Assembly (NCBI RefSeq): GCF_002778275.1
Contig: NZ_NESG01000003.1
Coordinates: 186,001 to 250,000 of the forward strand
Reading direction: 5' to 3'
DNA length: 64,000 nucleotides
Source of the DNA: Limnohabitans sp. G3-2
Lineage (GTDB): Bacteria > Pseudomonadota > Gammaproteobacteria > Burkholderiales > Burkholderiaceae_C
The position numbers and the translations under genes were made by a program. Below the pieces are notes generated by a model that had not been told where the DNA came from, ran no database searches, and saw only the letters and a list, made by a program, of their open reading frames with translations. Shown one piece after another: positions 38,137 through 57,698 of the stretch; within the stretch, counting starts at the first letter, position 1; every line of letters begins with the position of its first letter.

Positions 38137-38913
38137 ATGAATCTGACGGGCGGTTGGCACTGGCATTGGCGCGCCTGGCGTTCGCGAGAACGCTGGGCGC
38201 CTGCTGCGGCTGAAATTGAAGCGTGGCTGCTCGCTCAAACCATGCCACGAGATCAGCTCGTGCTGATCGGTGCGAGTGCAGGCTGGATGCTGCCCTCCGC
38301 TTGGTTGATCCAATTCAAAGAAGTGCATGCTTGGGACATCGACCCTTTGGCTGCGCCTTTGTTTCGCTGGCGGCACGGCCGGGCCTTGCGACAACATGGC
38401 GTCGCCCTGCACCTGCACACGGGTGATGGCTTGGCGGCCTTGACTCGCTGCATACCCCGTCTGCCCAACGCTTTTTATTGGTTTGACAATGTGTTGGGGC
38501 AATTGCGCTTCTCAGGCCAAGACCTGCACAGCGTCGAGCAGCAATTGGGGCATGTGAAGCACCGCATGCGATCCGTGGCGTGGGGCAGCGTGCACGACCG
38601 CATGTCGGGCCGCTGCTCACCCCGTGGTGCCTTGCCACCACCCCAGACGGGTTTGGCGCCTGCGGCCATGGACAGTGCACAGGCCCAAGCTTGGCTCCAC
38701 CGCATGGGGGCGATCAGCCCTTGCTTGGACCACCTGACCGAGCAGGTCTTGCCCGAGGCAACGCCTGTGCAGCACACCGCCTGGGACTTCAAGCCAGGCT
38801 ACGCGCATTGGCTTGAAATGGGCTGGTGCTCCCCCAGCGTTCAGCGCTCAGCGCCCAATCTTCAGCCTTTGGCGGCCATGGCATCCAAAGAAAATCCAGC
38901 GATTTTTTTGTAA
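38137..38913 (+). CDS. methyltransferase-like protein, unknown substrate
   Basis: A 258-aa protein. The segment LVLIGASAGWMLPSAWL (about 45-61) followed by AWDIDPLAAPLFRWRHG looks like motif I/II of a class I SAM-dependent methyltransferase, and FYWFDNVLGQL near residue 110 could be the next strand. The rest is not recognisable. The ATG at 38137 follows GCCGAGG. The last 52 nt overlap the convergent flavin monooxygenase gene, so either this C terminus or that one is read through the other's tail. Confidence 0.55.
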   Translation: MNLTGGWHWHWRAWRSRERWAPAAAEIEAWLLAQTMPRDQLVLIGASAGWMLPSAWLIQFKEVHAWDIDPLAAPLFRWRHGRALRQHGVALHLHTGDGLAALTRCIPRLPNAFYWFDNVLGQLRFSGQDLHSVEQQLGHVKHRMRSVAWGSVHDRMSGRCSPRGALPPPQTGLAPAAMDSAQAQAWLHRMGAISPCLDHLTEQVLPEATPVQHTAWDFKPGYAHWLEMGWCSPSVQRSAPNLQPLAAMASKENPAIFL

Positions 38914-40121
38914 TCGTCCGAGATCTGACGCAGCTCGGCTTGGCTGATCACGTCATCGATGTGGCGAAACGGTTTGCCTTGCGTCAACTCGTCCACCTTG
39001 ATGTTGATGAAATCGGGCGGCGTGCTCCGGTTGGTCAACACCACTTGGGTGGTCAATGGTCTGCGCACAGCCTCATAACGATGCAAGGCCTGCACCCGAT
39101 CAACGCCTGCCGGGACCTGGGCCAATTCGTCGGCCAAAGTGCGGGCATCGACCAAGGCTTGCGCCGAGCCATTCGAGCCACGCGGGTACATGGGGTGCGC
39201 CGCATCGCCCAGCAAGGTCACGCGACCAAAGGTCCATTGAGGAATGGGGTCCTTGTCCACCATCGGGTATTCCAAAATGGATTCGGCCTTGGCGATCAAT
39301 TCGGGCACATCCAGCCAGTCGAAGGTCCAATCCTTGAACAAAGGCAAAACATCTTCCACACGTCCTTGGCGGTTCCAGTCGTTTTGCGACACACCCTCCA
39401 TGCGAATCTCGGCCATCCAATTGACCAACTGCCGCCCTTGCGCGTCCACCTTGTCCACGATGGGGTAAATCACCATCTTGCCGGTCTCAATCGACCCAAT
39501 GCGCATGTAGGTCTTGCCGGTCAAGATCGGCGGGAAATGCGTGACGCCTCGCCAGGTGTTGATGCCCGTGAACACCACCTTTTCATCGGGGTAGAAAAGA
39601 CGGCGAACCGCTGAGTTCACGCCATCGGAGGCGATCAAGACCTGCGCACGAACTTCGGGCCGAGGCTGACCTTCTGGATCGTTGAATTGAATCGACACAT
39701 GGTCATCCCCCTGTGTCAAACCCACGAAACGGTGGCCGGTGTGGATGCGATCAGCGCCCAACCGCTGGACCGCCGCCGCAAACAAAATTTGGTGCAGCTT
39801 GCCACGGTGGATACCGACCTCCGGCACCGCATATCCTGCATGCCGGCCACGCAACTCGCTGTAAATGAATTGACCATGCCGATTGAAAAATGCACTTTCA
39901 TAATTTTCAATCCCTGCCGCTTCCAGTGCGGGCTGCAGGCCAAGGGCGGCCAACTCGCGCATGGCGTGGGGCAAGAGGGTGATCCCGACCCCCAGCTCCC
40001 GCACCTCCGCCACCGCTTCAAAAACCTCACAGGCCACGCCTCTTGCATGCAAGTGCAAAGCCAAGGCCAGGCCACCCACGCCACCGCCCACAATGGCAAT
40101 GCCGCCCATTTGCTTGTTCAT
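38862..40121 (-). CDS. flavin-dependent aromatic monooxygenase
   Basis: A 419-aa class A FAD monooxygenase. The NAD(P)/FAD motifs are IAIVGGGVGGLALALHLH at residues 8-25, ASDGVNSAVRRLFY near 160, and GDAAHPMYPRGSNGSAQA near 305. It resembles PhzS and salicylate or 6-hydroxynicotinate hydroxylases, so ring hydroxylation with or without loss of carboxylate is likely. It is the last gene of the long minus-strand run, 21 nt after a Bug receptor gene. Substrate unknown. Confidence 0.82.
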   Translation of the reverse strand: MNKQMGGIAIVGGGVGGLALALHLHARGVACEVFEAVAEVRELGVGITLLPHAMRELAALGLQPALEAAGIENYESAFFNRHGQFIYSELRGRHAGYAVPEVGIHRGKLHQILFAAAVQRLGADRIHTGHRFVGLTQGDDHVSIQFNDPEGQPRPEVRAQVLIASDGVNSAVRRLFYPDEKVVFTGINTWRGVTHFPPILTGKTYMRIGSIETGKMVIYPIVDKVDAQGRQLVNWMAEIRMEGVSQNDWNRQGRVEDVLPLFKDWTFDWLDVPELIAKAESILEYPMVDKDPIPQWTFGRVTLLGDAAHPMYPRGSNGSAQALVDARTLADELAQVPAGVDRVQALHRYEAVRRPLTTQVVLTNRSTPPDFINIKVDELTQGKPFRHIDDVISQAELRQISDDYKKIAGFSLDAMAAKG

Positions 40122-40142
40122 GATGCGAGTCCTGTGCGCCGC

Positions 40143-41120
40143 TCAATCGGCCGAAATTTGCTTGCTGCGAATCACCGCACCCCAACGCGGATAGTCCTTG
40201 GCGCTGATGGCAGCGAGCTCCGCTGGCGTGGAAGGCACGGCATCCATGCCGGCTTTGCCCAAAATATCTTTCACATCGTTTTGCCGCAAGATGGCCGCCA
40301 TCTCGGTGTTCAAACGTGACACCACAGCGCCGGGTGTTTTGCTGGGCACGAAGAAGGCGTACCAGAGGTCGACATCCACACGCTTGACACCCACCTCATC
40401 GAACGTGGGCACATCCGGCGCGACGGGGTGTCGCTTGGGGCTGCCCACAGCCAAGGCGTTCAAGCGACCATTCTTCACAAAGCCCTGGGCGATGTGAACA
40501 GGCAAGAAACCCACGTTGAGTTCCCCACCCAAAAGGTCCTGGGTGTAACCGGCCGAACCCCGATACGGCACATGCAGCATGAACGTGTTCGACTCCAGCT
40601 TGAACAGCTCCATGGCCATGTGGTGCGGCGTCCCGACGCCCGGCGATCCAAAGCTGATCGAACCGGGGCGGGCTTGCGCTTGCTTGACCAGTTCCGGTAA
40701 AGACTTGATGCCCGTCTTGGGATGGGCGACCAGCATCAGCGAACCATAGGCGGCCATCGAGACAGGCGCGAAATCCTTGATGGGATCGAAGCTGACGCTT
40801 TTGTACATTTGCGACGCCATCAACATGGTGTTCGCACCCATCAAGACGGTGTACCCATCGGGCGCTGACTTGGCCACGGCCTCAGCACCAATGTTCCCGC
40901 TGGCGCCAGGCTGGTTTTGCACCACCACGGCTTGGCCCAAGCGTTCACTCAAACGGGGCGCAACCACCCGTGCAATCGTGTCCATACCGGTCCCCGGCGT
41001 GAACGGGACGATGATTTTGACCGTCTGGCTGGGGTACGCACCTTGAGCCAAAGCCGTGCCCGCAAGGGTGAAGAAGGCGGCCGTCAGTGCCAGAGATTGA
41101 AGTCGGCGAAGGGTGATCAT
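40143..41120 (-). CDS. Bug-family tripartite tricarboxylate receptor
   Basis: A 325-aa exported binding protein with a signal peptide (LTAAFFTLAGTALAQ, cleaved near residue 26). The conserved blocks are YPSQTVKIIVPFTPGTGMDT, VVVQNQPGASGNIGAEAV and KSAPDGYTVLMG. Encoded between the LigW-like decarboxylase (33-nt gap) and the monooxygenase (21-nt gap), it probably recognises the substrate of this gene set. No TctAB components nearby. Confidence 0.9.
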   Translation of the reverse strand: MITLRRLQSLALTAAFFTLAGTALAQGAYPSQTVKIIVPFTPGTGMDTIARVVAPRLSERLGQAVVVQNQPGASGNIGAEAVAKSAPDGYTVLMGANTMLMASQMYKSVSFDPIKDFAPVSMAAYGSLMLVAHPKTGIKSLPELVKQAQARPGSISFGSPGVGTPHHMAMELFKLESNTFMLHVPYRGSAGYTQDLLGGELNVGFLPVHIAQGFVKNGRLNALAVGSPKRHPVAPDVPTFDEVGVKRVDVDLWYAFFVPSKTPGAVVSRLNTEMAAILRQNDVKDILGKAGMDAVPSTPAELAAISAKDYPRWGAVIRSKQISAD

Positions 41121-41153
41121 GCAATTGTCTCCTTGTTGCTTGTATGGGGATTT

Positions 41154-42230
41154 CTAAACTTGACCCGGTGCTTGGACAGGTGGAATTTTGAACAAACGCT
41201 GCGCATTGTCTTGAAAGAAGGCTTTGCGAACTTGCGGGGCCATATCGAGGTTTTCGAGCATGGCCACCTCTTCAGGGACATATTGGTAAGGGTAGTCCAT
41301 GGCGTAGAGCACACGGTCTGGTCCCATGAAGTCTTGTGTGAACTTGAGCGCGGCACCCCATGCCACACCGCTGTTGGTGATGTGGAAGTTCTCTCGCAGG
41401 TAATCACTGGGTTTTCGCTGTGTGGCTTGCACACTGGGGTAGCGCTTGGAGCGCACGGTCGCGGCATGCATGTAATCGAGTCGGTAGGCCCAAAACGGCA
41501 AGGCCTCGCCCATGTGCCCCAAGATGATCTGCAACTTGGGAAAGCGGTCAAAAACGCCTGAGGTGATGAGCCGCAGCGCGTGCAAACCCGTCTCAACGCC
41601 AAATCCATAAATCGCACCATCAAGGCCTGCCTCAATGAAGTGTTGAATCATGCTGGCGGGCATGGCATTGGGGTGCAGGTAAATCGGCGTGTCCATCGCT
41701 TCAGCCGCTTCAAAAATCGGCCAAAATTTGGTGTCAGACAGGTACTCACCCTGGGTGTGCGAGTTGATCACCACCGAGTGCATACCCAGTTGGTTCACGC
41801 CGCGCTGGATTTCTTTGGCCGCGGCAGCCGGGTCTTGCGGCGCCACGGCAATCATGCCCACCAAGCGATCAGGGTGACGGCGCGTGGCAGCGGCCAACAC
41901 ATCGTTCGCCTCTGGGGCAAAGGCGACCGCCGTTTCCTTGTCCATGATCTGCACGCCAGGCGAGGTCAAGCCAATCACCTGAACATCCACACCGGCAGCG
42001 TCCATGTGCTGCAGCCGCAATTCATCCAGATCGACCAAACAGCGCATGATGTGCTGGGCGCGCTCACTGGGGCTGCTCATGTAAAAGCCCATCAGGTGTT
42101 TGAAACCCACATCGACATCGTCTTTGGCCAAGATCCGTTTGTAGATCTCCAGCATTTCGGGCGGAGAAAAAGCTTCTTCGGTGGCAATTCGCCGATAGGG
42201 GCGCTGGGGCAAGTGGTGAGCGGTGGTCAT
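41154..42230 (-). CDS. LigW-like metal-dependent decarboxylase (amidohydrolase superfamily)
   Basis: A 358-aa protein with a TIM-barrel fold. RIATEEAFSPPE at residues 14-25 matches the metal-Glu motif of 5-carboxyvanillate decarboxylase (LigW) rather than the ExH form of gamma-resorcylate decarboxylase. QLGMHSVVINSHTQGEYL, IYLHPNAMPASM, GHMGEALPFWAYRLDYMHA and YAMDYPYQYVPEE supply the other ligands (His in YLHPN and GHMGE, Asp in AMDYP). It likely removes CO2 from a hydroxylated (hetero)aromatic acid. AGGAG precedes the start at 42230. No CxxC or Zn-hydrolase variants are seen. Confidence 0.8.
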   Translation of the reverse strand: MTTAHHLPQRPYRRIATEEAFSPPEMLEIYKRILAKDDVDVGFKHLMGFYMSSPSERAQHIMRCLVDLDELRLQHMDAAGVDVQVIGLTSPGVQIMDKETAVAFAPEANDVLAAATRRHPDRLVGMIAVAPQDPAAAAKEIQRGVNQLGMHSVVINSHTQGEYLSDTKFWPIFEAAEAMDTPIYLHPNAMPASMIQHFIEAGLDGAIYGFGVETGLHALRLITSGVFDRFPKLQIILGHMGEALPFWAYRLDYMHAATVRSKRYPSVQATQRKPSDYLRENFHITNSGVAWGAALKFTQDFMGPDRVLYAMDYPYQYVPEEVAMLENLDMAPQVRKAFFQDNAQRLFKIPPVQAPGQV

Positions 42231-42252
42231 CGTCGGTTCTCCTGAGGTCAAT

Positions 42253-42768
42253 TCAGCGTTGTGGGGTCCGTGGGGGCGCGGCCTGCAAGTCGAGGTTCCA
42301 ATTTTGGCCCACCAATTCGTGGCCAAAAGACCGGTGCTTTTCTTCAGCCACCAAGACAAAACCAGAGGCCTGGTAAATGCGCAGAGCGGCCAGCAAAATG
42401 TCGTTGGTCCACAGCGTCAAGGTCTGGTACCCCTTGGCGCGGGCAAAGGCGATGCATGCCTGCGTCAGGCCCTGACCCAAGCCCTGTCCGCGTGCGTGGG
42501 GTTCGACATACAACAGGCGCAGCTTGGCCACTTGCTCAGAGACCTTGACCAGAAACACCGAGCCCACGATCTGGCCATCGATTTCGGCGATCCATGCGTT
42601 CTCCCAGGCAGGGTCAAAGTTTTGAACAAACTGGGCACCGATCTCTGCCACCAGGGCCTCGAAGGTGCCGTCCCAGCCGTATTCCTGCGCGTACAAAATA
42701 CCTTGCCGATGCGCCACCCATCCGATGTCGCCCACTTGCAGGCCGCGCAATGTCCATGAGGGGGTCAT
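42253..42768 (-). CDS. GNAT family N-acetyltransferase
   Basis: A 171-aa acyltransferase. The acetyl-CoA pyrophosphate loop is RGQGLGQGLTQACIAFA near residue 93, preceded by LRLLYVEPHA. The N-terminal part (WVAHRQGILYAQEYGWDGTF) is typical of a MarR-associated GNAT subgroup. The acceptor is unknown. Its start overlaps the stop of the lyase gene by 4 nt, and it precedes the LigW-like gene by 22 nt. Confidence 0.8.
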   Translation of the reverse strand: MTPSWTLRGLQVGDIGWVAHRQGILYAQEYGWDGTFEALVAEIGAQFVQNFDPAWENAWIAEIDGQIVGSVFLVKVSEQVAKLRLLYVEPHARGQGLGQGLTQACIAFARAKGYQTLTLWTNDILLAALRIYQASGFVLVAEEKHRSFGHELVGQNWNLDLQAAPPRTPQR

Positions 42769-43646
42769 GTGGATTTTCCGTCTTCGTAGCGTTGCCCAAG
42801 GGCCAGCAATTGGGGCGTTTCAATGGCGGCGTTCAGCCCATCGAAGTCCAGCATCTTGTCTTGCCAAGGGCGCGTGGTCTGGTGGGCATGCAAGCTGGCA
42901 TAGTAGCCCTGAAGGGTGTGCAGCACCGCCCTCGCCGTGCCACCGGGAAAAATCACGATCTTGAACCCGCGCTCGCCCAACTCGGCGGCGCTTTGCACCG
43001 GCGTTTTGCCACCTTCGACCATGTTGGCCAACAGGGGCACACGCCCAGCAAACTGGGCGCAGGCGCGGTTCATTTGTTCATCCGAACGCAGTGCTTCGAT
43101 GAACAGCGCATCGACCCCGCATTCCAAATACCGCTCGGCTCGTTCCAACGCCGCGTCCAGTCCTTCCACGGCCACCGCATCGGTGCGGGCCAAGATCAAT
43201 GTGTTGTGGTCATGGCGGGCATCCAGGGCTGCACGCAGCTTGCCTTGCATTTCCGCCACCGGCACCACGCCCTTGCCATCCAGGTGACCGCAACGTTTGG
43301 GGAAAGTCTGGTCTTCGATTTGGATCATGGCAGCCCCTGCCCGCTCGAAATCTCGCACCGTGCGCTGGGTGTTGAGCGCATTGCCAAAGCCGGTGTCGGC
43401 GTCCACGATGACCGGAATGCGCACCCGGTCGGTGATGTGCGCCAAGGTCTGTGCCACTTCGGTGGCGGTGGTCAGACCAATGTCGGAGCGGCCCAGGCGC
43501 GTGTAGGCCACCGAAGCACCCGACAAATAAACCGCCTCAAACCCCGCTTGCTGGGCCACCAGCGCGGTGAGCGCGTCGTAAACACCGGGCGCCAGCAAGG
43601 CCTGCGCTTGCTGCAGGCGCTGCGCCAAATTGTGCGGCTGGTTCAT
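42765..43646 (-). CDS. isocitrate lyase / PEP mutase family lyase
   Basis: A 293-aa TIM-barrel lyase. The Mg site is VDADTGFGN (81-89, Asp82 and Asp84), with Glu111 in QIEDQ and the catalytic Cys loop KRCGH at 117-121. An intact Cys argues for a C-C lyase of the methylisocitrate, citramalate or 2,3-dimethylmalate type, or oxaloacetate decarboxylase, rather than a phosphonate mutase. All of these release pyruvate or a 2-oxoacid. It overlaps its flavoprotein neighbour by 4 nt and the GNAT by 4 nt. The pairing with LeuC/LeuD-like genes upstream suggests it cleaves their 2-hydroxyacid product. Confidence 0.82.
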   Translation of the reverse strand: MNQPHNLAQRLQQAQALLAPGVYDALTALVAQQAGFEAVYLSGASVAYTRLGRSDIGLTTATEVAQTLAHITDRVRIPVIVDADTGFGNALNTQRTVRDFERAGAAMIQIEDQTFPKRCGHLDGKGVVPVAEMQGKLRAALDARHDHNTLILARTDAVAVEGLDAALERAERYLECGVDALFIEALRSDEQMNRACAQFAGRVPLLANMVEGGKTPVQSAAELGERGFKIVIFPGGTARAVLHTLQGYYASLHAHQTTRPWQDKMLDFDGLNAAIETPQLLALGQRYEDGKST

Positions 43647-45046
43647 GCTGCCGAATCCTTCAAAATTTGTTGTGCCGTGTGGGCTGCGATGTGCCCGCCC
43701 GCGATGGCGCTGAGCAGGCCATTGCCCGACAAATAGCCCCACACCGCTGGCCCGGACACGCCCCGCGCTGCGCCGCCTGCGGCCAGCAAGTTGGGCAAGG
43801 GCGTGCCGTCTTGGCGCAGCACACGGGTGTGCGCGTCGATGTCCAAACCGCCCTGGGTGTGGAACAAAGCGCCCGTCACCTTGATGGCATGGAACGGGGC
43901 TTGCAGTGCGCGCTTGAAGGTGCGGCCTGTGGCCGGATCGGTGCCGGTCTGCACCGCGTTCAAGGTGGCTTGCAAAGCGTCTGCTGGGCAGCCGATCAGT
44001 TGGGCCAGGGCCGCCGCATCGCTCGCGTGCTGCACCGCACCCGCGCCTTGCGCCGCCACAAAATCCGGAAAGTCCTGCGCAAAATTCAAAAGCGCATCGT
44101 CCAACACGTTCCAGGCCACACCGCCCGGCTGCGCCAGCACATGCACCGCTGCCTCCGAGTAACCCTGGGTTTCGTCGTGAAAGCGCTGGCCTTGGGCGTT
44201 GATCTGCACACCGCCCTCCATCATCAGCGCCCATGAAATCAAAGCCCCTTGTGGCACAGCCCATGAGCCGTGGCCTTGGTACGCCCCCAAGTCGGCCAGG
44301 CGTGCGCCCAGCTGCTGGCCCCAAGCCAAAGCGCTGCCGTCGTTGCCCACATGGCCCGCATAGGTGGCCTCGGCCATCTCGGGCAGCATCTCTTTCACCA
44401 TGGCCGAAGCGCCACCAAAGCCATTGCAGGCCAGCAGCACGGCGTCGCACCGGATGCGCTCGGTCTGGCCATCGGGCCTGACAAATCCCACACCATGGAT
44501 GCGCTGCGCGCCATCGGCCCACAGCTCTGTGACCTGCGCCTGGGTGAGCACCACCACGCCCAGGGCATCGGCCGCCGCTTGCAGGCGGCTCATCAAGCCT
44601 GCGCCGGTTTTTTCAGGCACGGCGTGCATGCGGTGGGCGCTGTGGCCTGGGTACAAAAAATTGTCCAACACTTGCCAGGGCAGGCCGTGGTGTGCGGCCA
44701 GCGCGTCCATGGCGGGGCCGATGTTTTGGGCATAGGCTTGCACCAAGTGTGGGGCGGCCTGACCGTGGGCCTTGGCCTGGATGTCCGCAGCGAACGCCTC
44801 GACACTGTCGGTGATCCCTTGGGCCTGTTGCACCTGCGTGCCAGGCGCCGGAATGAAACCTGAGGACAAAGCCGTGGAGCCGGCTGCAAACGCATCACGC
44901 TCCAGCACCACACAGTCCACACCCAAGCGGTGCAAGGCCAGCGCGGCAGTGAGACCACAAGCGCCTGCGCCCACGATCACCACGGGGGTGTGGTCCTCGG
45001 CTTGCAAATCAGCAGCCCGGCGAACTTGCGGCAGCGGCACGCGCAT
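43643..45046 (-). CDS. FAD-binding dehydrogenase (fumarate reductase / tricarballylate dehydrogenase-like)
   Basis: A 467-aa flavoprotein of the FAD_binding_2 group. The dinucleotide motif is VVIVGAGACGLTAALALH near residue 22. HTQGGLDID near residue 394 carries the substrate-binding His of the fumarate reductase family. GVSGPAVWGYLSGNGLLSAI at the C terminus caps the FAD. Relatives introduce or reduce a C=C bond beside a carboxylate or ketone. No haem or iron-sulfur partner is encoded next to it. It starts 4 nt after the isochorismatase-fold gene stop. Confidence 0.8.
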   Translation of the reverse strand: MRVPLPQVRRAADLQAEDHTPVVIVGAGACGLTAALALHRLGVDCVVLERDAFAAGSTALSSGFIPAPGTQVQQAQGITDSVEAFAADIQAKAHGQAAPHLVQAYAQNIGPAMDALAAHHGLPWQVLDNFLYPGHSAHRMHAVPEKTGAGLMSRLQAAADALGVVVLTQAQVTELWADGAQRIHGVGFVRPDGQTERIRCDAVLLACNGFGGASAMVKEMLPEMAEATYAGHVGNDGSALAWGQQLGARLADLGAYQGHGSWAVPQGALISWALMMEGGVQINAQGQRFHDETQGYSEAAVHVLAQPGGVAWNVLDDALLNFAQDFPDFVAAQGAGAVQHASDAAALAQLIGCPADALQATLNAVQTGTDPATGRTFKRALQAPFHAIKVTGALFHTQGGLDIDAHTRVLRQDGTPLPNLLAAGGAARGVSGPAVWGYLSGNGLLSAIAGGHIAAHTAQQILKDSAA

Positions 45047-45050
45047 GGTG

Positions 45051-49892: not shown

Positions 49893-51175
49893 GCCAGCAC
49901 CTCGCGTGCATCGCTGATGCGCCCGCGCAAAGCCGAGGCTGCCACGGTGTAGGGCGAGGCCAAATACACATTCACGCTGGCCGGACCCATGCGGCCTTTG
50001 AAGTTGCGGGCAGTGGTCGAGATCACGGTGGCGCCTTCCGGGAAAGTGGCACCGTAACCGGCACACGCACCGCAGCTGTTGGGCAGCACCGTGGCCCCCG
50101 CGTCCAGCAAGGTTTGCATCACACCTTCTTGTGTGGCCTGTGCTTGCTCGCGGGCGCTGGCGGGCGCCACCATGAGCTGCACCCCTGAGGCCACACGCTG
50201 GCCTTTGAGCACGGATGCGGCGGCCCGCAGGTCTTCCAATTTGGCACCGGTGCAGGCGCCGATGTAGGCAATGGAGGGCATCACCTCCGAAAAATCGGCC
50301 ACGTCCCGCGTGTTGGCGGGGCTGTGCGGCGCGGCCACTTGGGGGCTGAGGGTGCTGGCATCAAAGCTGTGCTGTTCAAACTCAGCGTCTTCATCGGTGT
50401 GACAAGGCTCGGACCCCGACCCATGCGCCGGCTCCACGCCCACACCCCGCAGGTAGTTCAAAGTGGTCTCGTCCGCCGCGATCAAACCCGCCTGCGCGCC
50501 CATCTCGGCGCTCATATTGGACAGCGTCATGCGTTCGGCCATGGACAGGGCCTGCACCGCTGGCCCTGCAAACTCCACCGCCTGGTATTGACCGCCGTTC
50601 ATGCCAAAGCGCCCCACCATGTGCAGCATCATGTCTTTGGCCGAGACGCCGCGGCGCAAGCGCCCTGACCAGTGCATGCGCAAAGTGCGCGGCACCTGGA
50701 CCCAGATCTGACCGGTGACGCAAACGCCCAGCATTTCGGTGGCGCCAATGCCGAACATGTAGCAACCAAAAGCGCCCCCCGTGGGCGAATGCGAATCGCC
50801 GCCCACACAAAACATGCCGGGCTTCAAATGGCCCCGCTCTGGCAGCACCACATGGCAAATGCCTTCGCTGTCGATCACATGCGGCAGCTTCCACTGCTTG
50901 GCCGTGTCGCGCGTCATCTGGATGATTTTTTGCGCGTCGGCATCTTGTGCGGGCACATAGTGGTCCAGCACCAGCACCACTTTGTTTTTGTCCCAAATCT
51001 CGGCCCCCAACTCGTCGAGCATGGGCTTCAAACGCCTGGGCCCGGAAGAGTCGTGGAACATGGCCAGGTCAACCTTGCAGGTGACCACCTCGCCCACGGC
51101 CACATGGCTGCGCCCTGCAGCACGGGCAATCAACTTTTGAGCCAGGGTTTGAGGCTGAAGTGCGGTGGTGCTCAT
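49889..51175 (-). CDS. LeuC-like hydro-lyase large subunit
   Basis: A 428-aa [4Fe-4S] subunit of the short aconitase/isopropylmalate isomerase type. The cluster Cys are in IGACTGAKLEDL near residue 299 and NSCGACAGYG near residue 362. FCVGGDSHSPTGGAFGCY near residue 120 is the conserved active-site block and GRSHVAVGEVV lies at the N terminus. With the LeuD-like subunit it should add or remove water across a C=C next to a carboxylate. Maleate, citraconate or dimethylmaleate hydratases share this architecture. It overlaps the Bug gene by 4 nt. Confidence 0.86.
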   Translation of the reverse strand: MSTTALQPQTLAQKLIARAAGRSHVAVGEVVTCKVDLAMFHDSSGPRRLKPMLDELGAEIWDKNKVVLVLDHYVPAQDADAQKIIQMTRDTAKQWKLPHVIDSEGICHVVLPERGHLKPGMFCVGGDSHSPTGGAFGCYMFGIGATEMLGVCVTGQIWVQVPRTLRMHWSGRLRRGVSAKDMMLHMVGRFGMNGGQYQAVEFAGPAVQALSMAERMTLSNMSAEMGAQAGLIAADETTLNYLRGVGVEPAHGSGSEPCHTDEDAEFEQHSFDASTLSPQVAAPHSPANTRDVADFSEVMPSIAYIGACTGAKLEDLRAAASVLKGQRVASGVQLMVAPASAREQAQATQEGVMQTLLDAGATVLPNSCGACAGYGATFPEGATVISTTARNFKGRMGPASVNVYLASPYTVAASALRGRISDAREVLA

Positions 51176-52149
51176 TCGGGTTTGGCTCCGGCGTACTGGA
51201 CCACCGCGCGCCAGCGCACGATCTCGCTGTCCACAAAGCGGGCGAACTCTTCTGGGCTGTTGCCCACGGGCGTCGCGCCCTCGTGTTCGATGCGGCGCCT
51301 GACTTCGGGTGACTGCACCGCAGCGCGGGCGGCATCGGCCAATCGGCGGGTCAATTCGGGGCTCATGCGGCCCGGGCCAAACAAACCAAACCAGGCGCTC
51401 GACTCGTAACCCGGCAAGCTCTCACCAATGGTGGGCACCTGGGGAAATGCCGCCAAACGCTTGGCACTGGTCACCCCCAGGGCCTTGAGCTTGCCCGCCT
51501 TGATGTGCGACTGCACATTGCCAATGGCCGCGAACATCAACTCCACCTGCCCGGCCAAAACGTCTTGGACGGCAGGGGCTGTGCCGCGGTAGGGGATGTT
51601 GAGGATGTAGGCGCCCGACTTCATCTTGAATGCGTCACCCGCCATGTGCAAGGACGAGCCCAGTGCGCCAATCGCAAAATTCAATTGGCCCGGCTTGGAC
51701 TTGGCCAGCGCGATCAATTCCTGCACATTGTTGGCCGCCACCTTGGGGTGCGCGACCAGCACAGAGGGCGACGTGGACACCATGGTCAGTGGCGTGAAGT
51801 CCTTCACCGGATCAAAAGGCAAACTGGGATACAGCGAAGCGTTGATGGCATGGCTGGTAAAGCTCATGAGCAGCGTGTTGCCATCGGGAGCGGCCTTGGC
51901 CACGGCGTCGGCGGCCAGATTGCCACCCGCGCCGGGCTTGTTCTCGACCACCACAGTGCGGCCCAGCTGCGTGCCCATGACCTGCGCCAACGTGCGGGCC
52001 ATGGTGTCGGTGGTGCCGCCTGCGGGGGCGCCCACCAAGATTTTGATGGGCTGCTGTGAGGGGGTCTGGGCCCAGCCATGCGTGGCCAGACAGACCACGG
52101 CCGAGCTCCAAACCCAAGCGCGGCGTGAAATCATCGGGGTGCGTCTCAT
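51172..52149 (-). CDS. Bug-family tripartite tricarboxylate receptor
   Basis: A 325-aa exported receptor. The signal peptide starts MRRTPMISRRAWVWSSAVV and is cut near WAQ (residue 28). It is followed by IKILVGAPAGGTTDT, VVVENKPGAGGNLAAD and KAAPDGNTLLM. The start at 52149 has GAGGA 6 nt upstream. The frame is open further but not conserved. Its stop overlaps the LeuC-like start, so the receptor is translated together with the hydro-lyase. A 107-nt gap, the largest in the run, separates it from livF. Confidence 0.9.
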   Translation of the reverse strand: MRRTPMISRRAWVWSSAVVCLATHGWAQTPSQQPIKILVGAPAGGTTDTMARTLAQVMGTQLGRTVVVENKPGAGGNLAADAVAKAAPDGNTLLMSFTSHAINASLYPSLPFDPVKDFTPLTMVSTSPSVLVAHPKVAANNVQELIALAKSKPGQLNFAIGALGSSLHMAGDAFKMKSGAYILNIPYRGTAPAVQDVLAGQVELMFAAIGNVQSHIKAGKLKALGVTSAKRLAAFPQVPTIGESLPGYESSAWFGLFGPGRMSPELTRRLADAARAAVQSPEVRRRIEHEGATPVGNSPEEFARFVDSEIVRWRAVVQYAGAKPE

Positions 52150-52256
52150 CCAAATTCCTCTGTGTCCCATAGTCAAACAGGCTGCTCGTTTCCAATCGCT
52201 GGCCCGCTCATGGCCGGCTGCGCACCAGGGCCTGCAGCCAGCGCAGTCGATGCGCC

Positions 52257-52967
52257 TCACATGCCCAAATAAGCCTGCCTGAGCGTGTCACTCGCCAGCA
52301 ACTCGGCCGGTGTGCCCGTGAACCGAATCTGTCCGTTTTCCATCACATAAGCGCGGTCGGCAATGTCCAGCGACTGCCCGACGTTTTGCTCGACCAACAA
52401 GACCGCCAAACCACTGCTGCGCAACTGCGCAATGAGGCCAAACATTTCTTCCACCAGCAAAGGCGACAAGCCGAGCGATGGCTCATCCAAAATCAGCAAA
52501 CGCGGCTCGGCCATCAATCCCCTGCCAATGGCCAGCATTTGCTGCTCACCACCGCTCAAAGTGCCTGCCAACTGGGCCACGCGCTCTTTCAAGCGCGGGA
52601 AGGTGTCGTAAACCTTGGCCAGGTTCTGGGCGCGGCGTTCGCGTCCGCGGGTGAAGGCCCCCAACTCCAAGTTTTCATGAACACTCAAGTTGGGGAAAAC
52701 CTTGCGGCCCTCGGGCACCTGAATCAAACCTTGTTTGACCACCTCTTGGCTGTGCAGGCCGGTGATGTTCTGCCCGTCAAATTCCACCTGACCCGCGCGT
52801 GTGACCACGAGACCACTGAGGGTGTGGTTGAGGGTGGTCTTGCCTGCACCGTTGCTGCCCAAGAGCGCCACCAACTCGCCCGGCATGACCTGCAGGTCCA
52901 CGCCCCGCAAGACCTCGACCACGCCGTAGCCGGACTTGAGGCCCTGCACTTTCAACAAAGCGTTCAT
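52257..52967 (-). CDS. livF: branched-chain-type ABC transporter ATPase LivF
   Basis: A 236-aa cytoplasmic ATPase of a HAAT-family importer. Walker A GSNGAGKTT, signature LSGGEQQMLAIGRGL, Walker B RLLILDEPSLGL and the switch His region QNVGQSLDIADR are all present. Its partner livG overlaps by 4 nt. Such systems import branched amino acids, but in catabolic operons often aromatic or dicarboxylic acids. Confidence 0.93.
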   Translation of the reverse strand: MNALLKVQGLKSGYGVVEVLRGVDLQVMPGELVALLGSNGAGKTTLNHTLSGLVVTRAGQVEFDGQNITGLHSQEVVKQGLIQVPEGRKVFPNLSVHENLELGAFTRGRERRAQNLAKVYDTFPRLKERVAQLAGTLSGGEQQMLAIGRGLMAEPRLLILDEPSLGLSPLLVEEMFGLIAQLRSSGLAVLLVEQNVGQSLDIADRAYVMENGQIRFTGTPAELLASDTLRQAYLGM

Positions 52968-53740
52968 GCCTGTGCCTCCTGCGCTGTTTTGGCTTGGGCC
53001 ACGTTCTTTTGCAAGCGCTCGGCCGTGCCATGACCCAGATAAGCCTCCACCACGGCTTTGTTGTTGGTCACTTCAGCGGGGCTGCCTTGGGCAATCAGCT
53101 GCCCCTGCGCCAGCACCCAGACCTCTTGCGCCAAGCTCATGACCGCTTGCATGACGTGCTCGATCATCAGCACCGTCACGCCACTTTGGGCAATGCCTTG
53201 CACCACCGGAATCATCTCGGCAATCTCTTGCGGGTTAAGGCCTGCCAGCACCTCGTCCAGCAGCAGCAAACGGGGGCGCGTGGCCAGCGCACGGGCCAGC
53301 TCCAGGCGTTTGCGTCCTGCCACCGTGAGGTCGCTGGCCAGTTTGTCCAGTTGCGGACTCAGGCCCACTTGCTGCGCCACCGACTCGGCAAATTCCAGCG
53401 CTTGGGCGCGGCGCGGCAAATGCAGGTGCGCGCCCACCGCGATGTTTTCGCGCACCGTTTGCGCAGCAAAAGGCTGCACGATCTGGAAGGTGCGCGTCAG
53501 GCCCATGCGGGCGTTCAGGTGGGGTGCCTGGCCCGTGATGTCCTGGTCCGCGTACACCACACGGCCGGTGTCGGGCATGAGAAAGCCCGACATGAGTGCG
53601 AACAGGGTTGTTTTGCCCGCACCGTTGGGGCCAATCAAGGCACTCAGACGCCCCTCGGTCACCGACAGACTCACGTTTTGCACGGCCTTCAAGCCACCAA
53701 AGGACTTGCCCACGCCCTCGATCTGCAGCAGCGTGCTCAT
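52964..53740 (-). CDS. livG: branched-chain-type ABC transporter ATPase LivG
   Basis: A 258-aa ATPase with Walker A GPNGAGKTT near residue 38, the LivG-specific DITGQAPHLNARMGLTRTFQ stretch near 67, and Walker B RLLLLDEVLAGLNP. The signature is LTVAGRKRLELARAL instead of LSGGQ, as in one common LivG subgroup. The ATG at 53740 overlaps the livM stop by 4 nt. A tail rich in Ala, Gln and Glu follows the LivG core. Confidence 0.93.
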   Translation of the reverse strand: MSTLLQIEGVGKSFGGLKAVQNVSLSVTEGRLSALIGPNGAGKTTLFALMSGFLMPDTGRVVYADQDITGQAPHLNARMGLTRTFQIVQPFAAQTVRENIAVGAHLHLPRRAQALEFAESVAQQVGLSPQLDKLASDLTVAGRKRLELARALATRPRLLLLDEVLAGLNPQEIAEMIPVVQGIAQSGVTVLMIEHVMQAVMSLAQEVWVLAQGQLIAQGSPAEVTNNKAVVEAYLGHGTAERLQKNVAQAKTAQEAQA

Positions 53741-54714
53741 GATTTTTCTCCATCCGACTTGCTGCCGCGCAGCCATTGCATCGGTGTGATGGTGCCCAGC
53801 CCGGCAATGCCACGCGGCAAGAACATCACGATCACGATCAGCACCACGCCATAGATGACCATGTTGATGCCGGGCAGTTGCCCAAACAAATTGCGCGTCA
53901 GGTCGGCCAGAATGTGCAGGCTCACGGCGCCCAAAAGCGGCCCCCACAGCGTGCCCAAGCCCCCCACAATCGCGCCCACCAAGGCCTCGACCGAAGTGTG
54001 CGAACCAAAGGCGATACCCGGGTCGATGTACTGGAACACCTGCACATAAAACGCACCGCCAGCGCCCATCAAGCCGCCAGAGATCACCGTGGCCATCAAC
54101 TTGACGCTGAAAGGATTCACGCCAATGGCGCGGGCCGCGTCTTCGTTGTCTCGCACCGCCTGCAGGTAAGCGCCAAAACGGGAGTGGCGCAGCCAAGCGG
54201 TGATGCACAGCGCCAAGGTGACCAGCGCCAGCATGAGCCAGATGAAGCCAGCGCGGTTGCCAAACTGCATGTTGGCCGCAGACTCTTTGAGCGGCAGCAT
54301 CAGCCCCACGCCTGCACCGGTGAAAGGCACCGAAGTGGCCAGAATGCGGAACACCTCGGCAAAGGCCAAGGTGACCAGCGCGAAATAAGAACCCTTGAGG
54401 CCATAACGGAACGAGGCTGCGCCCACAAACGCCCCCACGCCCGCCGCGAAAGCCATGGCCAGCGGCAATGCCACCCAGGGGCTCAGGCCCCACTGCATTT
54501 GCGCAATGGCCTGGACATAAGCACCCGTGCCAAAGAACAGGGCGTGGCCGAAGGAGAACTGCCCACCAAATCCGCCCAACACGTTCCAGGCTTGTGAGAG
54601 CAAACAGGCGTAGAGCGCCGTCATGACGAAATTGAGCGCAACGCCCGACTGCGTGAACAAGGGCACGGCCCCCACCAGCAGCACAAACAGCGCAATGTGG
54701 CGAAAGTCTTTCAT
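53737..54714 (-). CDS. livM: branched-chain-type ABC transporter permease LivM
   Basis: A 325-aa inner-membrane permease with about 8-10 hydrophobic segments. It has the LivM core (GGFGGQFSFGHALFFGTGAY near residue 47) and VGAIVGGLGTLWGPLLGA near the C terminus. It overlaps livH and livG by 4 nt each, giving a strictly ordered H-M-G-F block. Confidence 0.92.
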   Translation of the reverse strand: MKDFRHIALFVLLVGAVPLFTQSGVALNFVMTALYACLLSQAWNVLGGFGGQFSFGHALFFGTGAYVQAIAQMQWGLSPWVALPLAMAFAAGVGAFVGAASFRYGLKGSYFALVTLAFAEVFRILATSVPFTGAGVGLMLPLKESAANMQFGNRAGFIWLMLALVTLALCITAWLRHSRFGAYLQAVRDNEDAARAIGVNPFSVKLMATVISGGLMGAGGAFYVQVFQYIDPGIAFGSHTSVEALVGAIVGGLGTLWGPLLGAVSLHILADLTRNLFGQLPGINMVIYGVVLIVIVMFLPRGIAGLGTITPMQWLRGSKSDGEKS

Positions 54715-55583
54715 GCCTTCGCTCCAAAAAATCCTTGCGGCCTGAACATGAGCACCACAATGAAAATCACAAAAATACCCACTTGACCCAGCGACTCACC
54801 CAGCAGCAAGCCCCCGAGCGATTCGACAACGCCAATGAGCAAGCCGCCCAGCAAAGCGCCGGCAAAGCTGCCCATGCCGCCGAGCACCACAATCGTGAAA
54901 GCCACCAGCACAAAGCCGTTGCCCACTTGCGGGTTGACGTAATAGGCGGGCATCAAGAAACAAGCCGCCGCGCCCAGACTGGCCAGGCCCAAACCAAAGC
55001 ACATGGCATAAACATGGTCCACATCAATGCCCATCAAACGCGCACCTTGCTTTTCTTTGGACACCGCGCGGATGGCGCGGCCCAAATCGGTTTTTTGCAC
55101 GATGAGCAGCAGCACGGCTGACACCACCAAGGCACCGGCAAAAGACACCAACTTGGGCAGCGCAATGAAGGCGGGCCCGATCTCGACGGTCGTCAAGGTG
55201 TAGGCGGTCTCGATGGTGCGGGTGTCGGACTTGAAGAACAAAAGCGCCAGGTTTTCCAGCACGATGGAAATGCCCAGCGTGACCAGCAGGATGTTTTCAT
55301 CCTTGCCGTGACTGGCGCGGTTGATCACACCACGCTGCAGGGCATAACCCAGCACAAACATGGCGGGCACCATGATGGGCAGGGCCATGTAGGGGTCGAC
55401 CCCGAAGTGTTGCTTCAGCATGTAAACGCCATACAGCGCCACCATCAAAGACGCGCCGTGCGCGAAATTGATGATGTGCAGCACGCCATAGATCAGCGTG
55501 AGGCCCAGCGCGATCAGCGCATACACGGCACCGGTAGTGATGCCGTTGAGCACCGAAGGAAACAGGATGTTGAAGTCCAGCAT
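54711..55583 (-). CDS. livH: branched-chain-type ABC transporter permease LivH
   Basis: A 290-aa permease with about 8 transmembrane segments. Diagnostic stretches are NGITTGAVYALIALGLTLIY near residue 13 and YGVLHIINFAHGASLMV near 32, then FVLVAFTIVVLGGMGSFAGA near residue 225. It is 24 nt downstream of the binding-protein gene and overlaps livM by 4 nt. Confidence 0.93.
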   Translation of the reverse strand: MLDFNILFPSVLNGITTGAVYALIALGLTLIYGVLHIINFAHGASLMVALYGVYMLKQHFGVDPYMALPIMVPAMFVLGYALQRGVINRASHGKDENILLVTLGISIVLENLALLFFKSDTRTIETAYTLTTVEIGPAFIALPKLVSFAGALVVSAVLLLIVQKTDLGRAIRAVSKEKQGARLMGIDVDHVYAMCFGLGLASLGAAACFLMPAYYVNPQVGNGFVLVAFTIVVLGGMGSFAGALLGGLLIGVVESLGGLLLGESLGQVGIFVIFIVVLMFRPQGFFGAKA

Positions 55584-55607
55584 CGGGGTCTTTCAGGTCA
55601 GCGCAGA

Positions 55608-56810
55608 TCAGCCCTTGAGCGGGAACACGGGTTCCACTTCGCGGTAGTCGCGTGGCACGATCACCTTGATGTCGCCTTTGGTGACTTGGGTCATCAAAGG
55701 CTGTGCGCCCATGTTCTGGCCATTGACGAACTGCGTCGGGCCGTAGGGCATGATGTGGTTCGCAAATTTGCTCGAAGCCAATGCGTCCGTGATGGCAGCG
55801 CGGTCGGGCGACTTGGCGCGTTCAATCGCATCGGCCAACAGCATCATGGCGGTGTAGGTCATGAACACTTCGTAGCTGAAGAACTGGCCTTGTGCTTCGA
55901 CGCGCTTTTTGAGTTCGGCCGAACGCTTGTCCTTGGGATTGAACCAGTGGTTGCAGTCAATGATGCCGTTGGCCGCTTCTGGAAATTCCTTGACGAACTT
56001 GTAGCTCGATGCCGCGCCACCCAACACCGAGTAGATGGCTTTGGGTGTGATTTTTTGCTGTTGCAAAGTGCGCACCAACAAGGCGTATTCGTTGTAGTAG
56101 TTGGCCGGAATCAGGATGTCTGGGTTGACCTGCTTGATGCGCAGCGCGATGTTGTTGAAGTCACGCGTGGGGTTGGCGTGCTTGATGATCTCTTTGACTT
56201 CGTAGCCGTAACCGGGCAGCTCTTTGGCCAGCAAGTTGGCCGTGCCTGTGCCAAACAGCGACTCTTCGTGCACGATCATCACGGTGCGGGCGGGTTTGCC
56301 AGCGGCGGTGTTGAGGGCGTGCAGGCTGGCAACAGCCACTTCAGCGCACTTCTTGTAACCCGGACCAAAGCGGAAGGTGTTTTTCAGGCCGCGCTCGACG
56401 ATCTGATCGGCCACGCCGACGTCCACCACATGGGGCAGGTTGTATTTGGCCGCAGCCTGTGTGGTGGCCAGGCAGATGGCGGATGCAAAGGCACCCACGA
56501 CGGCGCTCACGCCCGCTTCGTTCATTTTCTCGATCTCGGCCGTACCGGCTTGCGGGCTGGACTGCGCATCACCCAACATGGCTTCGATCTTGGCGCCACC
56601 GAGCGACTTGATGCCACCGGCCTTGTTGATGTCCTCAATCGCCATCAAAGCGCCCATGCGGCACTGCTGACCCGAATAAGCCAGGGCACCGGTCACGGGG
56701 TGCAAAACACCCACTTTGACAGGCTTGGGTTGAGCCCCACCCACCAGTGGAAACGCGAGCGCCGAGGCCGCAGCAGCGGACTGGCCCATGAAAGTGCGAC
56801 GTGAGGTCAT
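55608..56810 (-). CDS. ABC transporter substrate-binding protein (LivK-like)
   Basis: A 400-aa periplasmic receptor of the HAAT type. The N terminus is SRRTFMGQSAAAASALAF, a twin-arginine signal (SRRTFM), followed by VKVGVLHPVTGALAYSG. The Tat signal is unusual for LivK. The length and style are those of urea/amide or aromatic acid receptors, not leucine-specific ones. AAAGGA lies 5-8 nt before the ATG at 56810. It directly follows the gntR gene (20-nt gap) and supplies the ligand specificity of the importer. Confidence 0.88.
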   Translation of the reverse strand: MTSRRTFMGQSAAAASALAFPLVGGAQPKPVKVGVLHPVTGALAYSGQQCRMGALMAIEDINKAGGIKSLGGAKIEAMLGDAQSSPQAGTAEIEKMNEAGVSAVVGAFASAICLATTQAAAKYNLPHVVDVGVADQIVERGLKNTFRFGPGYKKCAEVAVASLHALNTAAGKPARTVMIVHEESLFGTGTANLLAKELPGYGYEVKEIIKHANPTRDFNNIALRIKQVNPDILIPANYYNEYALLVRTLQQQKITPKAIYSVLGGAASSYKFVKEFPEAANGIIDCNHWFNPKDKRSAELKKRVEAQGQFFSYEVFMTYTAMMLLADAIERAKSPDRAAITDALASSKFANHIMPYGPTQFVNGQNMGAQPLMTQVTKGDIKVIVPRDYREVEPVFPLKG

Positions 56811-56830
56811 GAAAACATCCTTTAAGTAGG

Positions 56831-57643
56831 TCAATGAAAGTTAGCGGACAACTCTTGGCTTACCCACACCTTGGCATCGATGCTGCCAACGCGGGATAAC
56901 TGCATCTGGTATTCGTACCGGTCCGGTCGGTACAAGCCATGCAGCCATTGGACGGGACGGTCGTCCTCGTCATAAATCAAACGCCGCACCGCCAACAAGG
57001 CCGATCCGACGGACACATCCAAATGCTGGGCCATGCCCACATCGGCCAGTCGGGCCGAAATGGTTTGCTCGGCCCGCCCCACCTTGACACCCGACTCCTC
57101 GAGCAGCACCAAAATGGGTTTTTGCGCCAACTCTCGCTTGCCAAAGCCAGCAGAAATCGAATGGGGCACCCACGTGGTGATGTGCGACAAAGGGCCCTCG
57201 GGCGTGCTGCGCACGCGCTCGGCTTTTTGGACCGTGGTCATGGCGGGCAACTTGAGCGCTGCAGCGACGTCCACCGGTGCACGCATGTGCTCCACACTGA
57301 GCACTTTGACCTTGGTGCGCATGCCCATGGTGACCAGGTTTTCCAGCAAACCCGTCAAGCGCGCCTGCTGGCCCGTGGCCATGGTGGAGGCCTGCATCTG
57401 CACCTGCTGCGAACGTGCCGACACAGGCCGCGTCCCGCGTCCAGGCTCTCGCTGAATCAGACCCTCTTCGGCCAGTTGCGACAGGGCCCGGCGCACCGTG
57501 ACGCGGGCCACACCAAACTGCCCCATCAAGGCCATCTCACCGGGCAAGCCCTCGTCAAACCGCCCCTCGCGCAATTGCTCGCGCAGCACCAGATAGACCT
57601 GGTGGTATTTGGGCAAAGGCAGATGGGCATCCATGACCTGCAT
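56831..57643 (-). CDS. GntR/HutC-family (UTRA) transcriptional regulator
   Basis: A 270-aa regulator. The N-terminal winged helix-turn-helix has GEMALMGQFGVARVTVRRAL near residues 35-54, and the C-terminal UTRA ligand-binding domain includes KAERVRSTPEGPLSHI near residue 140. I set the start at the ATG 57643, with an ATG at 57634 as alternative. A TTG at 57670 would put a perfect operator inside the gene. Two palindromes upstream suggest autorepression. It opens the 18-gene run, and UTRA effectors are usually pathway substrates or intermediates. Confidence 0.85.
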   Translation of the reverse strand: MQVMDAHLPLPKYHQVYLVLREQLREGRFDEGLPGEMALMGQFGVARVTVRRALSQLAEEGLIQREPGRGTRPVSARSQQVQMQASTMATGQQARLTGLLENLVTMGMRTKVKVLSVEHMRAPVDVAAALKLPAMTTVQKAERVRSTPEGPLSHITTWVPHSISAGFGKRELAQKPILVLLEESGVKVGRAEQTISARLADVGMAQHLDVSVGSALLAVRRLIYDEDDRPVQWLHGLYRPDRYEYQMQLSRVGSIDAKVWVSQELSANFH

Positions 57644-57660
57644 CGTGGAACAGTCCCATT

Positions 57661-57698
57661 GTCCTGTCAATAGGACATTCAGGTCTTATGCATAGGAC
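57661..57698. promoter_or_regulatory. two 16-bp palindromic operators for the GntR regulator
   Basis: GTCCTGTCAATAGGAC (57661-57676) and GTCTTATGCATAGGAC (57683-57698) share GTC[CT]T...ATAGGAC, with start-to-start spacing of 22 bp (two helical turns). They lie between the upstream acyl-CoA ligase stop and the regulator start. Both are therefore placed to repress the regulator and the operon behind it. No clear -10 or -35 box is visible in the overlap. Confidence 0.65.

Follow-up and report, generated by a model that had tools for sequence, protein, structure and literature searches.

The window analysed here, a stretch of 64,000 nucleotides from Limnohabitans sp. G3-2 (genome G000; 3.25 Mb in 25 contigs), carries a run of 18 co-directional genes on its minus strand (38862..57643) whose conserved core may be a complete operon for degrading a substituted cyclic imide or a closely related cyclic amide. 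Judging from sequence, we give this reading a probability of about one half. It builds on gene content, synteny, slot replacement and a conserved operator-like site, all of which were computed, and from it we infer every chemical step, the repression and the substrate. A Liv-type transporter would import the substrate, and HyuBA would open the ring with ATP, aided by an isochorismatase-fold protein of a type with glycine at the catalytic-cysteine position. A flavoprotein would desaturate the substituted succinate, or the ring prior to opening, a LeuCD-like hydratase would turn the maleate-type acid into a substituted malate, and a PrpB-like lyase would split the latter in a retro-aldol reaction into an alpha-keto acid and a carboxylic acid (R2-CH2-COOH). 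A GntR regulator would repress at an operator lying over the -35 box. A preliminary description of this DNA had named imides and N-heterocycles as candidate substrates; we infer that imides are the best class.

All 18 reading frames are present, and the families assigned earlier hold against Pfam and, for 13 of the 18 genes, against NCBIfam. At the head stands a regulator of the GntR/HutC type (GntR and UTRA domains by Pfam; 56831..57634, its start placed by promoter geometry), followed by a Liv-type periplasmic binding protein (SBP; 55608..56810, Pfam and NCBIfam) and by the Pfam-assigned permeases LivH (54711..55583) and LivM (53737..54714), ATPases LivG (52964..53740) and LivF (52257..52967) and Bug1 (51172..52149), a Bug/TctC-type binding protein found in some relatives only. 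The spacing is as tight as first reported. Ten of the 17 junctions are overlaps of 4 nt and seven are gaps of 4-107 nt, the largest, 107 nt, lying between LivF and Bug1. The other gaps are GntR-SBP (20 nt, taking ATG 56810 as the SBP start; the alternative TTG 56834 gives a 4-nt overlap with GntR), SBP-LivH (24 nt), isochorismatase-fold protein-flavoprotein (4 nt), GNAT-LigW (22 nt), LigW-Bug2 (33 nt) and Bug2-monooxygenase (21 nt).

The 18 genes were located by tblastn in 100 loci: 20 stretches of same-family genomes and 80 named loci, chosen by LeuC as the top 80 of 292 relatives. By LeuC, the nearest come from Limnohabitans and further Comamonadaceae of fresh water; identity is 88-94% for 29 of the 80 named loci. 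The conserved adjacency anticipated earlier is borne out: synteny is kept across many genera, as one catabolic module with its own regulator, in the usual order GntR-SBP-LivH-M-G-F-(Bug1)-LeuC-LeuD-[ring-opening cassette]-flavoprotein-lyase. The idea of a single 18-gene unit is right in number for this strain, but the conserved unit comprises only about 14 genes: GntR, the Liv importer, a variable Bug protein, the LeuCD-like hydratase, HyuBA, the isochorismatase-fold protein, the flavoprotein and the PrpB-like lyase. HyuA and HyuB occur in 59 of the 80 named loci, always with LeuC and LeuD since the loci were selected by LeuC. The lyase is found in 50 of these 59 and the flavoprotein is missing from seven, and each locus lacking one of them (nine for the lyase) ends no more than 650 bp from the last module gene; Bug1 escaped detection in 15, some of them cut. 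In a separate sample of 399 same-family genomes the flavoprotein is found at E <= 1e-100 in 35, including 3 of 6 from the same genus, so that the module is an accessory trait, and 34 of these 35 carriers also have the lyase at E <= 1e-80.

HyuAB, which the preliminary description listed in the set, is not obligatory: other ring-opening enzymes occupy the same slot. In other Comamonadaceae the position between LeuD and the flavoprotein holds a 494-residue Amidohydro_1 protein of the allantoinase/hydantoinase type, whose best model is the allantoinase AllB (230.9 bits, under the cut-off of 357.85); among solved structures it is closest to allantoinases and hydantoinases. Six of the 100 loci carry this gene, all without HyuBA, and it recurs in the later stretches L150, L152 and L153; in L027, L032 and L034 tblastn places it between LeuD and the flavoprotein, with a long antisense open reading frame over it in L027 and L034 (GC-rich antisense frames such as c28 and c30 look like artefacts). 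That an allantoinase/hydantoinase-type enzyme holds the slot of HyuBA and the isochorismatase-fold protein elsewhere, and that none of the 100 loci has both, we count in favour of the imide reading.

A further set, AtuA, lies upstream of GntR in 16 of the 100 loci, with DUF4387 and a short-chain dehydrogenase/reductase alongside in 13; ten of the 16 also have divergent PuuE-like (68 bits, cut-off 424.6) and MmgE/PrpD genes. AtuA with DUF4387 marks a second clade (L026, L102, L105, L107, L108, L110, L111, L113-L116, L121 and L122). The PuuE-like variant has two PuuE-like proteins in Burkholderia plantarii, where they score 128-142 bits against the same cut-off, in Acidiphilium and in genome G126. 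Of the characterised proteins, PuuE is nearest to a group with cyclic imidases among its members; HxnM is proposed, from mutant metabolites, to open an imide ring in Aspergillus nidulans (PMC9304392). On a tree built by a quick method from LeuC and the flavoprotein (64 of 86 labelled loci after removal of near-copies; support is weak for 18 of the 61 inner branches), the cassette label switches seven times, the minimum for four states being three, and the allantoinase type alone accounts for at least four changes on well-supported branches. This repeated exchange in one slot is the main reason for which we think that the cassettes do the same job.

The two operator-like repeats reported at the head of the operon are confirmed, with centres 22 bp apart. 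The main site, TGTCCTATTGACAGGACA (57660..57677, minus strand), contains a -35-like TTGACA (57665-57670), and the upstream near-palindrome, TGTCCTATGCATAAGACC (57682..57699, minus strand), has palindromic counterparts in the matching place in L064 (GTCCTATCAATAGGAC), L061 (GTCCTATCGATAGGAC) and L062 (GTCCTACCGATAGGAC). Of the 35 carrier genomes, 23 were searched for the 18-bp main site with at most 2 mismatches, and 20 have it, 19 in single copy and G565 in two copies; it was not found at this threshold in G130, G587 and G714. The reversed pattern, used as a control, gave no match in the 23 genomes, and the chance expectation within the window is 0.02 at up to 3 mismatches. Of the 21 sites, 18 could be compared with a mapped GntR; every one shares the strand of GntR and precedes its start by 14-21 nt. 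Those outside the comparison are in G630, in G749 and in the window itself, where the distance is 17 nt. Genomes with the allantoinase type (G042, G059, G097, G565, G698, G762) and with the HyuBA type (e.g. G000, G543, G553, G628, G689) have it in common. The second G565 copy (contig C4, L160) precedes a GntR-LeuC-LeuD set with no other module genes. In the AtuA-type loci, where GntR lies inside the operon, no such boxes were seen upstream of GntR. The regulon of GntR looks like one site, and since the module is conserved as well, it probably handles a common environmental compound.

In the window, a weak -10-like CACGAT (57642..57647, minus strand; 3 of 6 consensus matches, placed by its sequence context) follows TTGACA after 17 nt, and its counterparts in L161, L163 and L154 are TATGAT, TACGAT or TAATAT-like. 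At several loci the operator TTGACA is followed after 16-17 nt by a -10-like hexamer and, 6-8 nt further on, by the start codon. This geometry, with the -35 box inside the operator, was compared in the window (57634-57677), L142, L154, L159, L161 and L163. We prefer ATG 57634 as the GntR start because the -10-like element overlaps ATG 57643; GntR may thus be translated from a conserved leaderless mRNA, and it would repress by covering the -35 box inside its operator. A scan for internal promoters or terminators, which the preliminary description saw as able to split the run, flagged none in the 107-nt gap, but predicted sites were no commoner than in shuffled sequence (2 against 3.1 and 16 against 20.6) and the GntR promoter itself was not flagged, so that the scan is weak evidence either way.

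The enzymes belong to known families. LeuC (49889..51175, large subunit of an aconitase-type hydratase, hacA/IPMI_arch type by NCBIfam) passes TIGR01343 (413.1/385.7), TIGR02086 (416.4/410.15) and NF001614, and LeuD (49389..49892), the small subunit, passes the LeuD/DmdB model TIGR02087 (146.1/108.95), which places the pair in the homoaconitase/IPMI_arch/DmdB group. Leucine biosynthesis was rejected as its role: LeuC scores 242.8 bits against the leuC model TIGR00170 (cut-off 560.25), and a canonical leuC (757.5 bits) lies on contig C23. HyuB (47719..49392) and HyuA (45650..47722), assigned by Pfam and NCBIfam, hold the Hydantoinase_B and the Hydant_A_N and Hydantoinase_A domains, respectively. 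Their best NCBIfam models are caprolactamase alpha for HyuA (520.3 bits) and beta for HyuB (273.5 bits), and both stay below the equivalog cut-off of 1000, so that they are not caprolactamases by this measure. The window genome holds two more HyuA-type genes, at C1:279914 and C1:409835.

The isochorismatase-fold protein (45051..45653, Pfam) has Gly146 at the position of the catalytic cysteine (TNGGV) and keeps Asp14 and Lys113, all three in 57 of 57 aligned sequences, and thus falls outside the cysteine amidohydrolases (RutB, biuret hydrolase, N-carbamoylsarcosine amidase). Matching proteins beside PuuE-like or archaeal amidohydrolases keep the cysteine, as SGCVRA or SGCVRS (L124, L127, L129, L137, L139). 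The glycine-type subfamily occurs only beside HyuBA in the 100 loci. Since glycine replaces cysteine here, the HyuBA type may finish ring opening differently.

This substitution bears on two other readings of the module. HyuBA might open a 5-substituted hydantoin to an N-carbamoyl acid, which the isochorismatase-fold protein would decarbamoylate before the flavoprotein, hydratase and lyase process the skeleton. HyuAB and the allantoinase/hydantoinase families do act on hydantoins, the best NCBIfam match of the isochorismatase-fold protein is RutB (69.9 bits, cut-off 377.95), and the allantoinase-type protein matches two hydantoin-5-propionate amidohydrolase models (187 and 183 bits, below cut-off). 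Nevertheless, we regard a hydantoin as an unlikely substrate, given that the catalytic cysteine of a carbamoyl hydrolase is glycine in all 57 sequences and that an amino acid product would need neither an aconitase-type hydratase nor an ICL-type (isocitrate lyase-type) lyase. Creatinine or hydantoin degradation through a carbamoyl hydrolase was put down on the same change. True isochorismatases also have glycine at this position. The second reading starts from this likeness to enzymes that hydrolyse vinyl ethers: the ring would be a lactam or enamide, as in the nicotinate fermentation of Eubacterium barkeri, which uses a dimethylmaleate hydratase and a 2,3-dimethylmalate lyase, with the enamine hydrolysed by the glycine-type protein ahead of dimethylmaleate-type hydration and cleavage. 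LeuD passing the LeuD/DmdB model and caprolactamase as the nearest model of HyuA fit such a route, but the other steps of nicotinate fermentation have no counterpart among the 18 genes, and the variants substitute allantoinase- and imidase-like enzymes; we judge it improbable as well.

The remaining two core enzymes are the flavoprotein and the lyase. The FAD_binding_2 flavoprotein (43643..45046, Pfam), a probable dehydrogenase from its nearest PDB chains (urocanate reductase and flavocytochrome c), keeps the histidine of HHTxGG as FHTQGG and stays below the cut-offs of flavocytochrome c and TcuA. The lyase (42765..43646; ICL/PEP-mutase superfamily, PEP being phosphoenolpyruvate) was assigned by profile and PDB searches, and carries the loop KRCGH; KKCGH/KRCGH is the catalytic loop of lyases in this superfamily. 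K, R and C are kept in 75 of 75 aligned sequences, and G and H in 74. Its PDB matches run from carboxyphosphoenolpyruvate mutase and PrpB (193-187 bits) through petal death protein (183) and 2,3-dimethylmalate lyase (159) to isocitrate lyase (about 53), and it reaches no equivalog cut-off (PrpB, 294.2 bits against 354.4). With the PrpB and TcuA models unreached, membership in the methylcitrate cycle or in tricarballylate catabolism was rejected. A looser form of the latter, in which HyuBA would be an ATP-dependent carboxylase making a dicarboxylate for a tricarballylate-like, substituted-succinate pathway, draws on the below-cut-off matches of HyuAB to acetophenone carboxylase models and of the flavoprotein to TcuA (115 bits, cut-off 369). 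Fumarate reductases have two arginines with substrate-binding and catalytic roles. With these not kept in the flavoprotein, HyuBA swapped for hydrolase-like proteins and caprolactamase as its best model, a carboxylase has little in its favour.

Downstream of the lyase, the run continues with a GNAT acetyltransferase (42253..42768, Pfam), a LigW-like amidohydrolase (5-carboxyvanillate decarboxylase-like; 41154..42230, 410 bits to 4inf), a second Bug/TctC protein, Bug2 (40143..41120, Pfam), and an FAD monooxygenase of the PRK07538 type (38862..40121, 561 bits against a cut-off of 400; best PDB matches 2rgj/3c96). These four, formerly counted as part of the module, form a strain-variable tail. 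In the 25 of 29 close loci that reach the lyase, GNAT occurs in 14, Bug2 in nine, the monooxygenase in eight and LigW in four, and seven have none; these counts are lower bounds, because most loci stop 1.5-2.9 kb beyond the lyase. The window's complete four-gene tail was seen in none of the 25. That all 18 genes form one aromatic or N-heteroaromatic pathway, entered through the monooxygenase and the LigW-like decarboxylase, is very unlikely: the tail genes are co-directional and tightly spaced in the window, and LigW resembles the decarboxylase, but GNAT and LigW never occur together in the 25 loci and the core is complete without a tail in many genera. The tail enzymes were accordingly rejected as entry steps.

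Two other genes flank the run on the same strand. An AMP-forming acyl-CoA ligase (57782..59374) adjoins the operon in many Limnohabitans loci; a role in activating the acid product is a guess. A further TctC/Bug binding protein lies downstream (35654-36631).

Returning to the imide reading, we also count for it the PuuE-like variant, the substitution by a CoA transferase with HMG-CoA-lyase-like (HMG, 3-hydroxy-3-methylglutaryl) or CitE-like enzymes and by MmgE/PrpD, the operator shared between cassette types, and the proximity of glutaryl-CoA dehydrogenase (GcdH), which suggests a more specific substrate. On a B. plantarii plasmid the operon is followed by genes for electron transfer flavoprotein, GcdH (735 bits to 3gnc) and a CoA transferase whose best model is the succinate-glutarate one (542 bits, cut-off 750). 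A GcdH gene is present in 34 of the 35 carrier genomes and lies within 1.2 kb of GntR in three, the distances being 0.65 kb (G064) and about 1.1 kb (G042, G689); in G748 it lies 8.4 kb from a distant second flavoprotein (49%). G689 has a LysR gene between GntR and GcdH and a CoA transferase (54%, L143) after, G042 has a LysR-like open reading frame in the gap, and the arrangement in L075 is the same as in G689 and L081, which are probably one genome. Over the 35 genomes, GcdH within 5 kb was seen three times against 0.23 expected (P>=3 0.0018) and within 12 kb four times against 0.37 (P>=4 0.0006). Given that the null takes genomes as independent and contigs as whole, and that the test was suggested by a cluster already seen, this adjacency is moderate support. 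In a control with acyl-CoA dehydrogenases in 18 of the 35 genomes, one non-GcdH gene lay within 12 kb of the module among the matches listed (G748, contig C68); these did not include the module-adjacent GcdH of G042, G064 and G689, so that the control is of limited use.

GcdH beside the module would make glutarate the product and, hence, a methyl/carboxyethyl imide such as hematinic acid the substrate. Hematinic acid is the imide from propionate-bearing tetrapyrrole rings, and its dihydro form comes from chlorins. PrpB prefers a methyl substituent, and if R2 is CH2CH2COOH and the PrpB-like lyase shares the preference for methyl at C2, the diacid would correspond to hematinic acid; with the dihydro form as substrate, the presence of the flavoprotein would be explained. 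We therefore put forward, tentatively and with considerable doubt, that R1 is CH3 and R2 is CH2CH2COOH, and that hematinic acid or its dihydro form yields pyruvate and glutarate. In one clade a ferrochelatase gene lies directly downstream of the lyase on the opposite strand (L097, L104, L109, L112, L118; L109 scanned); it is probably an ordinary neighbour, and we do not count it as support. No other tetrapyrrole gene was noticed near the module, although no systematic search for such genes was made. PMC7318184 cites occurrences of hematinic acid and maleimides in lake sediments and senescent leaves, which we also count for the reading; the study itself reports hematinic acid but no maleimides in leaves, and puts the yearly production and degradation of chlorophyll on a scale of 10^12 kg.

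The same functions recur in other gene orders on annotated plasmids. In Azospirillum oryzae the order is GntR-Liv-lyase-HyuB-HyuA-isochorismatase-fold protein-flavoprotein-LeuC-LeuD, and two Sulfitobacter clusters use a TRAP importer. Roseomonas, with no LeuCD in the stretch, has MmgE/PrpD, as does Tistrella in place of LeuCD. In the stretches from Haloferax, Halomarina, Rhodococcus and Acidiphilium the ICL-type lyase is absent, and a CoA transferase is found with an HMG-CoA-lyase-like or CitE-like gene. Since their flavoproteins are only 38-42% identical to that of the window, the distant Haloferax, Halomarina and Rhodococcus clusters are analogues of unproven relatedness. Halomarina L137 carries three pairs of amidohydrolase and isochorismatase-fold genes in one 25-kb stretch, with AtuA/DUF4387 and CoA transferase/CitE-like genes. 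Plasmid pJE1 of Sphingomonas sp. JE1 (L141) bears a TonB receptor-linked cluster with HyuAB, MmgE/PrpD, a flavoprotein (38%) and a HapK-like protein, perhaps another N-heterocycle pathway.

Several observations weigh against the imide operon as we read it. Relatives of HyuAB include oxoprolinases, hydantoinases and carboxylases. With the amidase cysteine gone, hydrolysis of the second C-N bond has no obvious enzyme, and the allantoinase type has no isochorismatase-fold gene in the slot. The two fumarate-reductase arginines are not kept in the flavoprotein, as read by eye from the alignments to flavocytochrome c and urocanate reductase, and the AtuA/DUF4387 cassette is unaccounted for by the scheme. 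The 25 kb of Paraburkholderia L128 encode HyuBA, the isochorismatase-fold protein and the lyase, but not the flavoprotein, and the exchange of LeuCD for PrpD is not clean, Neorhizobium L135 and Haloferax L139 having both. The preliminary description had tied the LeuCD-like and HyuAB genes to the lyase. For LeuCD alone the tie is broken, the lyase being undetected in the stretch read at L030, L031, L036 and L160 (nor was it seen in L066, L091, L115, L116, L120 and L121, where the sequence stops close to LeuD or the flavoprotein); for HyuAB it holds in the 100 Comamonadaceae-centred loci, yet the 25 kb from Acidiphilium L127 contain HyuAB and LeuCD but no ICL-type lyase. Conversely, L069, L070, L033, L035, L037 and L119 have LeuCD and the lyase without the flavoprotein or HyuBA. 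Sub-modules therefore exist, and may serve other diacids. Finally, 31 of the 35 carriers showed no GcdH near the module (one without a GcdH match, several too fragmented to tell); the window genome is among them, its GcdH lying on another contig, as does a CoA transferase that scores similarly (511.6 bits).

Parts of the scheme have parallels in described systems. The E. barkeri system likewise pairs a LeuCD-type hydratase with an ICL/PEP-mutase-superfamily lyase on a 2,3-disubstituted maleate and malate, whereas the module has an aerobic freshwater host, a Liv importer, a HyuBA or imidase-like opener and a flavoprotein, and no B12 mutase steps among the 18 genes. The end of the methylcitrate cycle (PrpD/AcnD and PrpB) and tricarballylate catabolism (TcuA) share the logic of dehydrogenase, hydratase and lyase and a PrpB-like lyase, but the PrpB and TcuA cut-offs are missed here and the operon context differs. 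The genes for glutarate catabolism are GcdR-GcdG-GcdH; GcdH stands beside the module, with a LysR gene and a CoA transferase, in some lineages, but this would be a downstream route. In the imidase and half-amidase pathway, and with HxnM/HxnN of A. nidulans (PMC9304392), an imide is opened and then deamidated, and the PuuE-like variant resembles the HxnM group; here, in contrast, the ring would mainly be opened by HyuBA, with ATP, or by an allantoinase-like enzyme, and cleavage of a substituted malate would follow.

We found no description of this operon in the open-access literature among the matches listed, most subscription papers lying outside. The claim of an undescribed system matching no nameable pathway thus stands for the combination, its modular spread and its regulation, which appear new, but not for the protein families, which are all known, though not every function is. 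There is some chance, which we hold to be rather low, that this is the first known dedicated mineralisation pathway for the monopyrrole imides of chlorophyll, haem and bilins, and a modular family with interchangeable cassettes for ring opening, hydration and cleavage in Proteobacteria, related more loosely to clusters of Actinomycetota and haloarchaea. Were the tetrapyrrole reading true, it would answer how bacteria consume the final fragments of chlorophyll. Should only the imide reading hold, a testable role and a set of candidate substrates would follow for many proteins that currently bear the annotation 3-isopropylmalate dehydratase, hydantoinase/oxoprolinase or isocitrate lyase/PEP mutase family.

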